Assembly: GCA_023957775.1 (NCBI GenBank)
Contig: JAMLGR010000008.1
Location: 62,001-126,000 of the forward strand
From: Fimbriimonadaceae bacterium
GTDB taxonomy: Bacteria; Armatimonadota; Fimbriimonadia; Fimbriimonadales; Fimbriimonadaceae
Direction: 5' to 3'
DNA: 64,000 bases
In this document: positions 36,999-58,190 of the stretch, piece by piece
Layout: each line of letters starts with the position of its first letter
How positions within the stretch are numbered: the stretch's first letter is position 1
Made by a program: the position numbers and the translations under genes
Notes under the pieces: generated by a model
What the model saw: only the letters and a program-made list of their open reading frames with translations
Database searches by the model: none
What the model was told of the DNA's origin: nothing

Positions 36999-37080
36999 GG
37001 GCGCAGAGGGTTTCACGCAGAGGCGCAGAGGCGCGGGGGGACGTTTCACGCAAGGAACGCAATGGGCGCAAAGGGGGGGG
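36999..37080 (+). repeat. Dispersed repeat island A (ACGCAGAGGCGCAGAGG type)
   Basis: Begins directly after the cmk stop. Two motif types alternate: TTTCACGCAGAGGCGCAGAGG-CGCGGGG and TTTCACGCAAGGAACGCAA-TGGGCGCAAAGGGG. The second recurs at 39548-39580 in the same orientation. The island ends at a run of eight G (37073-37080), beyond which RHS-like coding sequence starts abruptly. Confidence 0.9.
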
Positions 37081-37152
37081 CGTGTCTCAAGACGTGGTGT
37101 ACGAAGCATCGAGGTCGGCTCGCCCGAGCGCGGGGCGCGCGCGTTCCAGACG

Positions 37153-38784
37153 ATGACCCAGCTCGACGGCTCGCTAGGAGAAACTTCCAACGAGTTCCAC
37201 TACGCCTACGACCAGGCGGGGCGTCTTCGCCACGCGGCGTTCGCGCAGACTCCGCAGTCCCACATGACGGGCTGGCCCTACTACACGGGGCAGGATCCCG
37301 CGCAGACCCGGGCGCACACGCTCTACTCGTACGACGGCGCCGGCCGGTCCACCGGGGTGGAGACGTACTTCCAGACGTGGAACCCGACCCTCGCGGATTA
37401 CGAAGGGCAGAGCAAGATCGCCCAGGGGTACCTCTACGACGAGCGCGGTCTGCGTTCGTCGCAACAGTTCCTCAGCGGCGTCCCGGGCGGGCCGGAGTGG
37501 TCCACGCTGCGCACGGAGACGTACACCTACGAGCCTCAGCGCGGGTACCTGACCAGCGTGAACTACGGAGACGGCTCGCCCGTGAGCACGTGGACGTACG
37601 ACCTTGCCGGGAACCGCGCCTCGTGGAATCTCTCCGTCGGGCCGTACCTGTACGACAATCTCAACCGCTTCACCTACCACCCGAACACGACGTACACGAA
37701 CGATCTGCTCGGCAACCGGACGTGGGAGAACTACGGCCTGCCGGGCGGAAAGCGCTACGTCTACGACGAGCTGAGCCGCGCGACGAGCATCTGCGGCGAG
37801 ACGGACGGCGCGGCGTACGAGTACCGGGCGGACGGGATGCGCGTGGAGAAAGTCTCGGGTCTGACGATCACGTGGAACCCCGCCGACAAGACGCACCGCT
37901 CGGGCTGGTACGACCAGAACTGGTCGGTCAACAAGGCGACGACGCGCTACTTCTACGACGGCCAGATGTGCATGGAGGAGGACTTCATGCCCGAGGCCGG
38001 CGGCAACGGCGAGCCATCCGTGACGCGTTACGGCCTGGGCGCGCGCGGCATCGACATGATCGAAAGGACCACGGCGCAAGGCGCCACGCGGGCGTATCCG
38101 TTGTACGATGGACATGGAAACATGCTCGCCACGATCTCGCTCTCGGGAGCGCTCGCCAACCAGCGCCACTACGACGTCTGGGGCGCGGTGCGCGCCGAGC
38201 AGGACGTGGACGCGGTGAACCCCCGCGGCCAGTACGTGGCGAACCTCGGGCACCAGACGGATGTGGAGTCCAATCTCATCTACATGCGGGCGCGCTACTA
38301 CGACCCGGGGACCGCGCGGTTCGTGACCGAGGACCCGGCCAGGGACGGGGTCAACTGGTTCGTTTACTGCAACAACGATCCGGTGAACACGGTGGATGCC
38401 GATGGGAGGGCATGGGACACATTTGAGGCCCTGTGGAGGTCAATAGCTCCCCTGTTATCTTCCTTCGGATTGCGCGGGATGTTAGGAATAGGCACGAAAT
38501 TCGGCGCGCGAATGCTCGGCAAAGCTCTTGTTGCGGTTGGCTTCGTACTTGCGAGGGTTGGATATGGGATGGCATCCTATGCCCGAATTCTTGCGCAAAG
38601 CGAGAACTTCTTTGCCCGAATTGGCGGAGCTGTTTTGGGCAGGCTCCGAGCGAAGGCCGTTGCGGCGAGCCTCTCCATACGTTCGGTTGGCTACTTCATG
38701 GAGGCTTTTGGAAGCGATGTACCGTTTGGACCCACCAAGGGCTGGAGAGAAATAGACTTTGATGATTGGATCTTCCCAAACTGA
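37153..38784 (+). CDS. RHS-repeat protein (5'-truncated) with variable C-terminal domain
   Basis: A 543-residue protein. Residues about 1-420 are an RHS/YD-repeat shell: YAYDQAGRLRHAAF, YSYDGAGRS, YDLAGNRAS, YDELSRATS and so on. The core ends with LYDGHGNMLATISL, YMRARYYDPGTARFVTEDPARDG and YCNNDPVNTVDADGRA, the conserved junction where variable toxin tips start. About 125 residues follow (418-543), hydrophobic in the middle (MLGKALVAVGFVLARVGYGMA) and acidic at the end (IDFDDWIFPN), with no family I recognise. There is no signal peptide or N-terminal secretion domain. The frame stays open through the repeat upstream without an ATG, so the shell has lost its 5' part. The DNA of the tip looks lower in GC than the core. 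Confidence 0.85.
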   Translation: MTQLDGSLGETSNEFHYAYDQAGRLRHAAFAQTPQSHMTGWPYYTGQDPAQTRAHTLYSYDGAGRSTGVETYFQTWNPTLADYEGQSKIAQGYLYDERGLRSSQQFLSGVPGGPEWSTLRTETYTYEPQRGYLTSVNYGDGSPVSTWTYDLAGNRASWNLSVGPYLYDNLNRFTYHPNTTYTNDLLGNRTWENYGLPGGKRYVYDELSRATSICGETDGAAYEYRADGMRVEKVSGLTITWNPADKTHRSGWYDQNWSVNKATTRYFYDGQMCMEEDFMPEAGGNGEPSVTRYGLGARGIDMIERTTAQGATRAYPLYDGHGNMLATISLSGALANQRHYDVWGAVRAEQDVDAVNPRGQYVANLGHQTDVESNLIYMRARYYDPGTARFVTEDPARDGVNWFVYCNNDPVNTVDADGRAWDTFEALWRSIAPLLSSFGLRGMLGIGTKFGARMLGKALVAVGFVLARVGYGMASYARILAQSENFFARIGGAVLGRLRAKAVAASLSIRSVGYFMEAFGSDVPFGPTKGWREIDFDDWIFPN

Positions 38785-38847
38785 ATCTGGAGGAGTGCAG
38801 ATAGTCGGATCCAAGATGCCAACCTCCGAGGTTTCAGGATTAAGCTC

Positions 38848-39297
38848 ATGTTCTCAGCATTGATTAGAACCGCGCGGCGGATGGTGGGTGCTGGCGGGAA
38901 ACTGATTCGGTATTCTGCTAGTCTCGACGGCGCTGTGCACTTGCGAGATATCGAGTCCAAGGAAGTCCTTGCGTCGCTAATGTTGTTGCATGAAAACTAC
39001 AGGTGGCGGAACTTGGAAGATCTCAAGGGTGACTTGCACCGCGCAAAGGTGGCTGCTGATCGACTCTGGGTATTGCCCCCCGTACATTCCCATTGTGAAA
39101 AAGATGTGCTTGGGAGACTGGAGAATACCGTTGTAGTCCTTAATGGCATTTGGGTCTATCCGAATCTTGTCGGCTCCGAACCTCATGGGAACTCGATTGC
39201 CGAGCGCCTAGAGTCATTGCATCGCGGATTAGGTGCGCCAATAGAGATCCTAACGGAGTCCGATGTCACTTTACTCAGTGAATGTCTTGGTCGATAA
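38848..39297 (+). CDS. Candidate immunity protein for the RHS C-terminal domain
   Basis: A 149-residue soluble protein 63 bases downstream of the RHS gene. N-terminal MFSALIRTARRMVGAGGK, then a strand-rich middle (ENTVVVLNGIWVYPNLVGSEPHG) and IAERLESLHRGLGAPIEIL near the end. Codon use and GC are unlike the surrounding genes, matching the preceding RHS tip. I recognise no immunity family, and it has no signal peptide. Its call as immunity protein rests on position: between a variable RHS tip and an orphan RHS fragment. Confidence 0.6.
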   Translation: MFSALIRTARRMVGAGGKLIRYSASLDGAVHLRDIESKEVLASLMLLHENYRWRNLEDLKGDLHRAKVAADRLWVLPPVHSHCEKDVLGRLENTVVVLNGIWVYPNLVGSEPHGNSIAERLESLHRGLGAPIEILTESDVTLLSECLGR

Positions 39298-39326
39298 GGG
39301 AAACGACGCCACCTCGCTCCTGACCG

Positions 39327-39537
39327 GCGCCACTACGACCCGTTCGACTCGCTACGCTCGCTCGGGGCAGGCGTCTGGGGCGCGGTGCGCGCCGAGCAGG
39401 ACGTGGACGCGGTGAACCCCCGCGGCCAGTACGTGGCGAACCTCGGGCACCAGACGGATGTGGAGTCCAATCTCATCTACATGCGGGCGCGCTACTACGA
39501 CCCGGGGACCGCGCGGTTCGTGACCGAGGACCGGGCG
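39327..39537 (+). pseudogene. Orphan end of the RHS core (displaced tip remnant)
   Basis: Bases 39373-39532 are identical to 38176-38335 of the RHS gene (160 of 160 bases), encoding GAVRAEQDVDAVNPRG to YYDPGTARFVTED. The preceding GCGCCACTACGAC (39327-39339) also matches 38163-38175, but 33 bases rich in CGCTACGCTCG are inserted between. It has no start and no RHS body. After FVTED the frame runs straight into a repeat island, so the old C-terminal tip is absent. Confidence 0.85.
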
Positions 39538-39656
39538 CGGGGGGAGTTTTCACGCAAGGAACGCAATGGGCGCAAAGGGGTGGGGAGGGCTCACGCAGAG
39601 GCGCAGAGGCGCGGGGGGACTTTTCACGCAAAGAACGCAATGGGCGCAAAGGGGTT
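39533..39656 (+). repeat. Dispersed repeat island B (ACGCAGAGGCG / ACGCAAGGAACGC type)
   Basis: Begins at the end of the orphan RHS fragment. It contains TTTTCACGCAAGGAACGCAA then TGGGCGCAAAGGGG, then TCACGCAGAGGCGCAGAGGC and a second CGCAAAGAACGCAATGGGCG. The orientation is the same as in island A, so the RHS locus lies between direct copies. Confidence 0.9.
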
Positions 39657-39882
39657 TCCCCAAGGCCCAAGGCCCAAGGCCCAAGGCCCAAGGCCCAAGG
39701 CCCAAGGCCCAAGGCCCAAGGCCCAAGGCCCAAGGCCCAAGGCCCAAGGCCCAAGGCCCAAGGCCCAAGGCCCAAGGCCCAAGGCCCAAGGCCCAAGGCC
39801 CAAGGCCTAAGGCCCAAGGCCCAAGACCAAGGACGAAGGCCCAAGGCCCAAGGCCCAAGGCCCAAGGCCCAAGGCCCAAGGC
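39657..39882 (+). repeat. Tandem 7-bp array (CCCAAGG)n
   Basis: About 32 copies of CCCAAGG with few variants (CCTAAGG, AGACCAAGGACGAAGG). It ends in the stop codon of the minus-strand NTF2-like gene at 39883. Translated in any frame it gives Pro-Lys-Ala-Gln-Gly-type repeats, but these have no sign of being a gene. Island B plus the array fill the 585-base gap after the candidate immunity gene. Confidence 0.95.
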
Positions 39883-40395
39883 CTAACTCGCTCCGCCATA
39901 CTTCTTCGGCAGTGGCAGGTTGGGGCCTTCGGCTTGCCAGGTGAGGTTGGCGATCCACCAGCGCGTGCCGTCGTGGACGAGCTGGATGCTGTTGATGCCG
40001 CGCGCGATCGGCTTGTCGCCCTTTTTGAGGCGGGACTCGTACGTGCTGAAGACGTGGGAGATGCCGCCGAAGGACTCGGTCGTCTTGGCGACCTCGGATT
40101 CGAAGAAGCCCTGCGTTTCGAGGAACTTGCGGTTTTGCTCGATGTACTCGTCGACGGTCATCGGGCGAAAGGCGCCCGTGCCGTCGGGGCGGCGCACCAC
40201 GGGCGTGAGCCTGGCGCCGGGGGCGAAGAGCGACCGCATGCGGTCCCAATCGCGGGCTTGGCCGCCGGGGCCGCTGATGACGTCGTAGAGCGCGGAAACG
40301 AGCGTCTCGGGAGACTTCCCGTCGGGCGAAGGGGGCGTTTGGGCCCATCCGAACGACGAGGCCAGGACGAGCAGAGGCAGAGCGAACGCTTTCAT
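39883..40395 (-). CDS. Secreted NTF2-like (SnoaL-type) protein
   Basis: A 170-residue protein with a signal peptide (MKAFALPLLVLASSFGWAQ). The mature part reads LVSALYDVISGPGGQARDWDRMRSLFAPGARLTPV, then MTVDEYIEQNRKFLE and later WWIANLTWQAEGP. This order (helix, cone of beta strands, closing 'W.I....w') is the NTF2-like/SnoaL fold, used both by small enzymes and by binding proteins. Catalytic residues are not clear. CATACT at 40401-40406 lies just upstream. The coding end runs straight into the heptamer array. Confidence 0.8.
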   Translation of the reverse strand: MKAFALPLLVLASSFGWAQTPPSPDGKSPETLVSALYDVISGPGGQARDWDRMRSLFAPGARLTPVVRRPDGTGAFRPMTVDEYIEQNRKFLETQGFFESEVAKTTESFGGISHVFSTYESRLKKGDKPIARGINSIQLVHDGTRWWIANLTWQAEGPNLPLPKKYGGAS

Positions 40396-49067: not shown

Positions 49068-49260
49068 CCTCCAAGGCCCAAGGCCCAAGGACCAAGGCCC
49101 AAGGCCCAAGGCCAAGGACGAAGGACGAAGGACCAAGGACCAGCCAGGCCCAAGGCCCAAGGCCAAGGACGAAGGACGAAGGACCAAGGACCAGCCAGGC
49201 CCAAGGCCCAAGGCCAAGGACGAAGGACGAAGGACCAAGGACCAGCCAGGCCCAAGGCCC
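49068..49260 (+). repeat. Higher-order heptamer array with 51-bp units
   Basis: CCCAAGG heptamers then three near-identical 51-bp units, each CAGCCAGGCCCAAGGCCC-AAGGCC, AAGGACGAAGGACGAAGGAC, CAAGGAC. 51 is a multiple of three, so the units stay in frame, but translation gives only low-complexity peptide. It ends three bases before the stop of the cyclase gene at 49264. Islands D and the array fill the 386-base gap. Confidence 0.9.
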
Positions 49261-49263
49261 ACC

Positions 49264-58032: not shown

Positions 58033-58190
58033 GGATACCGGCCCCGGGTTCGTCCTTGGCCTTGGGCCTGGCTGGTCGTTGGTCCTTCGTCCTTCGTCCT
58101 TGGCCTTGGGCCTTGGGCCTGGCTGGTCCTTCGTCCTTGGCCTTGGGCCCCGGGTTCGTCCTTCGTCCTTCGTCCTTGGGCCTTGGGGAA
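58033..58190 (-). repeat. Heptamer array (CCCAAGG family), inverse orientation
   Basis: CCTTGGGCCTGGCTGGTC, GTTGGTCCTTCGTCCTTCG, TCCTTGGCCTTGGGCCTTGG and similar. Read on the minus strand it is the same CAGCCAGGCCCAAGG / AAGGACGAAGGAC unit as at 49068. Together with island E it fills the 327-base gap between ClC and pilT. Confidence 0.9.

Follow-up and report, generated by a model that had tools for sequence, protein, structure and literature searches.

We analyzed a 64,000-nucleotide (nt) stretch of an uncultured Fimbriimonadaceae bacterium (assembly GCA_023957775.1, contig JAMLGR010000008.1, positions 62,001 to 126,000), hereafter called the window, in which a fragment of an RHS gene ends in a variable tip and is followed by a small gene and a second copy of the RHS core end. 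The parts of the cassette and its borders lie on the forward strand, and positions are those of the window. The RHS fragment is an open reading frame (ORF) of 543 amino acids counted from an internal methionine (37153 to 38784), which runs in a single frame without internal stops. An earlier note on this DNA, made from its letters alone, had called this frame an RHS gene, and a profile match of its residues 340 to 418 to TIGR03696 (Rhs_assc_core; E = 5.6e-18) confirms that assignment. The C-terminal 123 amino acids (38413 to 38784) form the variable tip, a putative toxin. An ORF of 149 amino acids, the putative immunity gene, follows at 38848 to 39297. The end of the RHS core is present twice, as copy 1 (38164 to 38335) in front of the tip and as copy 2 (39328 to 39541), a tip-less orphan scrap recognized by repeat comparison and by alignment to a full-length relative.

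The RHS gene had also been taken for the main gene of the locus, and this part of the earlier reading did not hold. Full-length RHS proteins in relatives have about 1400 to 1500 amino acids, and alignment to a 1505-amino-acid full-length relative from the family begins at residue 903 of that protein (window position 37114). About 900 N-terminal residues are missing from the window protein, and the N-terminal part that carries an export or secretion signal is incomplete; in one relative (G022), the RHS protein has a hydrophobic, signal-like segment at its N terminus. The frame is open back to 36940, yet no ATG, GTG, or TTG precedes 37153, so that the 5′ end of the truncated gene (37077 to 37152), although in frame with the ORF, has no start codon. 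What is present corresponds to an orphan module, namely, a core end and a tip without initiation or export signals and a small gene linked to them. No main rhs gene lies upstream of the cassette; a gene resembling cytidylate kinase lies there instead, as does a dispersed repeat. Judging from its sequence, the segment is part of an RHS locus with dispersed repeats at its borders rather than a main gene with an old tip.

The tip is rare. A phylum-wide search of 291 genomes revealed two true relatives, both within the family of the window's genome but each in another genus, with E values of 1.4e-18 and 2.7e-9 and identities of 38% and 34%. A profile built from the three sequences matched only the two relatives and the window. 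Weak tip matches in G288, G150, and G036, along with a weak match to the partner gene in G077, were discarded as chance after their contexts were read; by eye, the discarded frames resembled an integral membrane protein of the glycosyltransferase type, a glycerol-3-phosphate dehydrogenase, an acetyltransferase, and a large unrelated protein. The tip is therefore patchy, being found in 3 of 291 genomes, and relatives of the core occur in 58 of the 81 genomes searched for RHS relatives (the window's own included), which is the distribution of a variable tip on a conserved core. In both relatives, the tip is joined to an orphan RHS core end, and the ORF behind it has 160 amino acids in one case and 183 in the other; in one of the relatives (JACFNW010000287.1), a further core end stands after this ORF and is identical to an earlier module of the contig at 55 of 55 nt, up to the end of the contig. 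The G+C contents of the tip (0.538), the gap behind it (0.508), and the 149-amino-acid ORF (0.516) are all clearly below that of the RHS core (0.666), as would be expected of exchangeable modules; the second core end has a G+C content of 0.718 and the whole window one of 0.657. The predicted model of the tip, built from two sequences only, has only helical secondary structure; two long helices (residues 34 to 63 and 68 to 104) form a hairpin, and the mean predicted local distance difference test (pLDDT) score is 82. Comparison of this model with the PDB gave no match with an E value below 1, and all Pfam matches to the tip and its relatives were under the cutoff.

A small gene lies behind all three homologous tips. 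These downstream ORFs are alike in size and, by eye, in their C-terminal thirds, though not significantly so. The 149-amino-acid protein matched no family, and its structure model was unusable (pLDDT, 37.5). The earlier note had held that its reading would fall if the tip were fused and conserved everywhere and the downstream gene did not co-occur with it; what we found instead is a patchy tip, with a co-occurrence that is one of position only.

To place this cassette among its relatives, we surveyed the tips in 20 fetched loci of related genomes (L036 to L055), in a second RHS cluster of the window's own genome, and in the window. Partner genes were taken as the longest ORF starting within 350 nt, with RHS-like ORFs removed by hand-written patterns, and the resulting figures are rough. 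The survey yielded 49 tips of 104 to 142 amino acids (median, 124). Their G+C content is mostly below that of the adjoining core, a small ORF usually stands behind them, and in multimodule arrays the next core end then follows. This layout, with a core end, a tip of about 124 amino acids, a small gene, and the next core end, occurs in about 10 or more related genomes; the arrays G022:C186, G017:C1, G007:C1, and JACFNW010000287.1 share it with the window, the last of them with the window's own tip family before its further core end. This comparison lends good support to the polymorphic-toxin reading that had been proposed from the window alone. Unlike the other Fimbriimonadaceae arrays, the window holds one tip and a tip-less scrap. 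Similar tips stand on full-length RHS genes in some genera or genomes and on orphan fragments in others, with main/orphan pairs represented by L040_1/L051_1 (E = 7.8e-40), L041_1/L054_1, L047_1/L044_4, and L052_1/L043_3; for two of these tip pairs (L040_1/L051_1 and L044_4/L047_1), the downstream genes are homologous as well. Arrays in the fetched loci reach eight tip modules, and most of their tips and partners are small and hydrophobic. By eye, several tip families have a C-terminal pattern in common (Y...LLGLLIxID-like). One locus, L050 (G015:C4), has a 266-amino-acid ORF behind its tip that is, by eye, of the formylglycine-generating-enzyme type, an odd partner for an RHS tip.

Many tips in the family are hydrophobic. 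A 19-residue stretch with a Kyte-Doolittle (KD) value of 1.6 or more is present in 29 of 39 scored tips, and there is a tendency for such tips to be followed by partners that are hydrophobic as well (Spearman, 0.48 [p = 0.002]; Fisher p = 0.056). The window tip has no stretch at this threshold and is moderately hydrophobic, with a maximal KD value of 1.43. Instead of being a toxin, the window tip could also serve as the structural or membrane-anchoring terminus of an RHS protein at the cell surface, in which case the 149-amino-acid ORF would be unrelated to it. The many hydrophobic tips in the family would fit such a role, as would the fact that no known toxin family was found, but the diversity of the tips, their low G+C content, the small gene behind most of them, and the correlation in hydrophobicity between tips and partners suit toxin/immunity pairs better, and we hold a structural tip improbable.

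The two core ends of the window are exceptionally alike. The 160-base identity that the earlier note reported between 38176 to 38335 and 39373 to 39532 is exact, without internal mismatch. The exact repeat in fact covers 161 bases (38175 to 38335 and 39372 to 39532), the first of which is a chance match, so 160 is a fair figure; taken as 170 bp, the pair is 98% identical. It is the longest exact nontandem repeat in the window. Over 165 bp, the pair has 99 to 100% DNA identity, which exceeds the 65 to 97% seen between core ends within family arrays (up to 97.5% over 511 bp) and is consistent with recent duplication or conversion. The identity could instead be an artifact of assembly, that is, a collapsed or duplicated read end, as the genome is in 27 contigs and one relative's contig ends inside such a core end. 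Copy 2, on the other hand, has an insert of its own and unique flanks on both sides, and it lies well inside a contig of 181,861 bases, so that we give an artifact hardly any credence. This insert, of 33 nt and in frame (39340 to 39372), separates CGCCACTACGAC, which is found 5′ of both copies, from the 160 bp. It contains the repetitive extragenic palindrome (REP)-like TCGACTCGCTACGCTCGCTCGG, of which one more copy, with 2 mismatches, is found on contig C15; the insert and G000:C15:67404-67441 are the only two near-copies in the genome.

Copy 2 begins about 30 nt past the stop of the 149-amino-acid ORF, whose frame it shares, and its 160 bp lead into a dispersed repeat. It has no tip, which runs counter to the earlier view of the second copy as an old, displaced tip. 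The earlier note had also suggested that recombination between the copies could switch or delete the tip. Deletion holds up: recombination between the 160-bp copies would remove 1197 bp, with the tip and its partner. Because copy 2 carries no tip, deletion is the only outcome that such recombination would have, and the switch falls away. An active two-cassette system in which identical core ends recombine and exchange tips would be in keeping with the exact 160-bp identity, with the high core-end identity within arrays elsewhere, and with the precedent from Salmonella (PMC3967940), but it is contradicted at this locus by the missing second tip, and the upstream RHS gene lacks its delivery part. 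We consider it very unlikely here.

The borders of the segment consist of repeats. On the left, a dispersed repeat of the TTTCACGCAAGGAACGCAATGGGCGCAAAGGGG type (repeat family D3; 37013 to 37076) abuts the RHS fragment; on the right, copies of the dispersed repeat lie directly 3′ of copy 2 (39548 to 39654, at 39548 to 39580 and 39591 to 39654). The left and right border copies are nearly identical. A 23-mer of this repeat has about 54 places in the genome with 2 or fewer mismatches, compared to 0 for the reversed control. The dispersed repeat, TTTCACGCAAGGAACGCAATGGG(CGCAAAGGGG), often forms short clusters and was seen several times near contig ends (C4, C9, and C14). A (CCCAAGG)n tandem repeat of 32 copies follows at 39659 to 39883; similar 7-bp arrays occur at three places in the window, namely, directly behind the cassette and at 49071 to 49261 and 58049 to 58187.

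The second RHS cluster of this genome lies on contig C13 (57.6 to 73.7 kb; G000:C13:57635-73660) and comprises remnants as well as three modules that bear tips. Nowhere else in this genome was the N-terminal RHS part found, and its pieces on C13 lie in several different frames. The long upstream RHS sequence there matches the full-length relative only across different frames, which suggests either a pseudogene or assembly errors. If these changes of frame do not stem from the assembly, the genome may thus lack an intact member of this RHS subfamily.

Comparable arrangements are known from other bacteria. Orphan CdiA-CT/CdiI modules, with a variable tip, an immunity gene, and displaced orphans, follow a logic like that of RHS; the window protein has an RHS core instead, and no CdiA or CdiB features were seen. 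The closest likeness is to the orphan rhs-CT/rhsI module of Salmonella Typhimurium LT2 (Koskiniemi et al. 2014; PMC3967940), which, like the window, combines a displaced core end, a tip, and a small gene without initiation or export signals with high DNA identity between core ends. In Salmonella, orphan and main rhs are 95% identical over 522 bp, and the orphan is activated by recombination with the main gene, an experimental precedent for recombination between similar core ends (PMC3967940). The Salmonella orphan, however, lies behind a full main rhs gene and bears a tip, whereas in the window the front fragment is itself an orphan, the locus has no main gene, and the second copy is tip-less. 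A further point of comparison is Tse5, a pore-forming RHS toxin of Pseudomonas aeruginosa that is delivered by type VI secretion and whose C-terminal tip acts on membranes (PMC10684867); many family tips are hydrophobic, and the window tip has no similarity to any solved chain.

We regard it as probable that this region represents a polymorphic-toxin cassette of the RHS kind that has become separated from its delivery gene. The tip would be an interbacterial toxin and the 149-amino-acid protein its immunity partner, functions that we infer from the layout of the family. Tips would be exchanged through recombination between conserved core ends; this cassette would have been separated from its array, probably via recombination involving dispersed repeats, and of the module behind it only the core end would be left. 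As it stands, the tip by itself has neither a start codon nor a signal peptide or secretion domain and would therefore be a silent store or a decaying remnant. A silent store could come into use only once recombination had joined the tip to a full RHS gene, and activation as in Salmonella would be possible in principle with an RHS gene elsewhere; the 149-amino-acid gene could still give immunity if transcribed.

Several observations weigh against a detached toxin cassette. Neither a toxin family nor a solved structure or fold was matched by the tip. The 149-amino-acid protein showed no significant similarity to the genes behind the homologous tips (shuffle p = 0.25 and 0.80; hhalign E = 0.066), and the pairing of tip and partner therefore rests on position. 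A simple sigma-70 scan across the region found no promoter-like site. Detachment via the dispersed repeats is suggested by the map, and neither an empty site nor a strain of the same species was found: the cmk gene was located in 58 of 61 genomes of the family, but the window's downstream neighbors did not appear within 1.5 kb at any of the 29 other cmk loci that we read, so no unoccupied site could be read.

Some of the same evidence would suit a segment that is simply debris of an RHS array, whose tip and partner have no function and which has survived by chance in an intergenic region rich in repeats. Such a remnant would account for the 5′ truncation without a start codon, the tip-less second copy with its insert, the dispersed and tandem repeats at the ends, the C13 cluster that matches full-length RHS only in several different frames, and the lack of a promoter-like site. 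Against it, the RHS fragment, the tip, and the partner ORF contain no internal stop in more than 2 kb, and the chance of a 170-codon open frame at a G+C content of 0.52 is about 4e-4 by our own arithmetic. The 160-bp identity suggests a recent rearrangement, and little decay would therefore be expected whether the cassette is functional or not. A dead remnant is a serious possibility, if one we place at somewhat less than an even chance, and it overlaps with the detached cassette, a reading that itself leaves room for a functionless one.

Systems of this kind are already known; as a lead, the family's arrays of membrane-type tips hold more interest than the window locus itself. The literature that we searched contained no account of RHS systems in Fimbriimonadaceae, and family-wide tip-cassette arrays with mostly membrane-type tips are apparently undescribed. 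It is conceivable, though we hold it doubtful, that the Fimbriimonadaceae maintain an exchange system for membrane toxins, with up to eight modules per locus, tips and immunity genes that are mostly small membrane proteins, core ends kept alike by gene conversion, and dispersed repeats that move single cassettes, the window's included, elsewhere. The window cassette extends orphan RHS tip/immunity cassettes, known experimentally from enterobacteria, to a little-studied and mostly uncultured family, whose arrays form a natural data set on tips moving between main and orphan positions.
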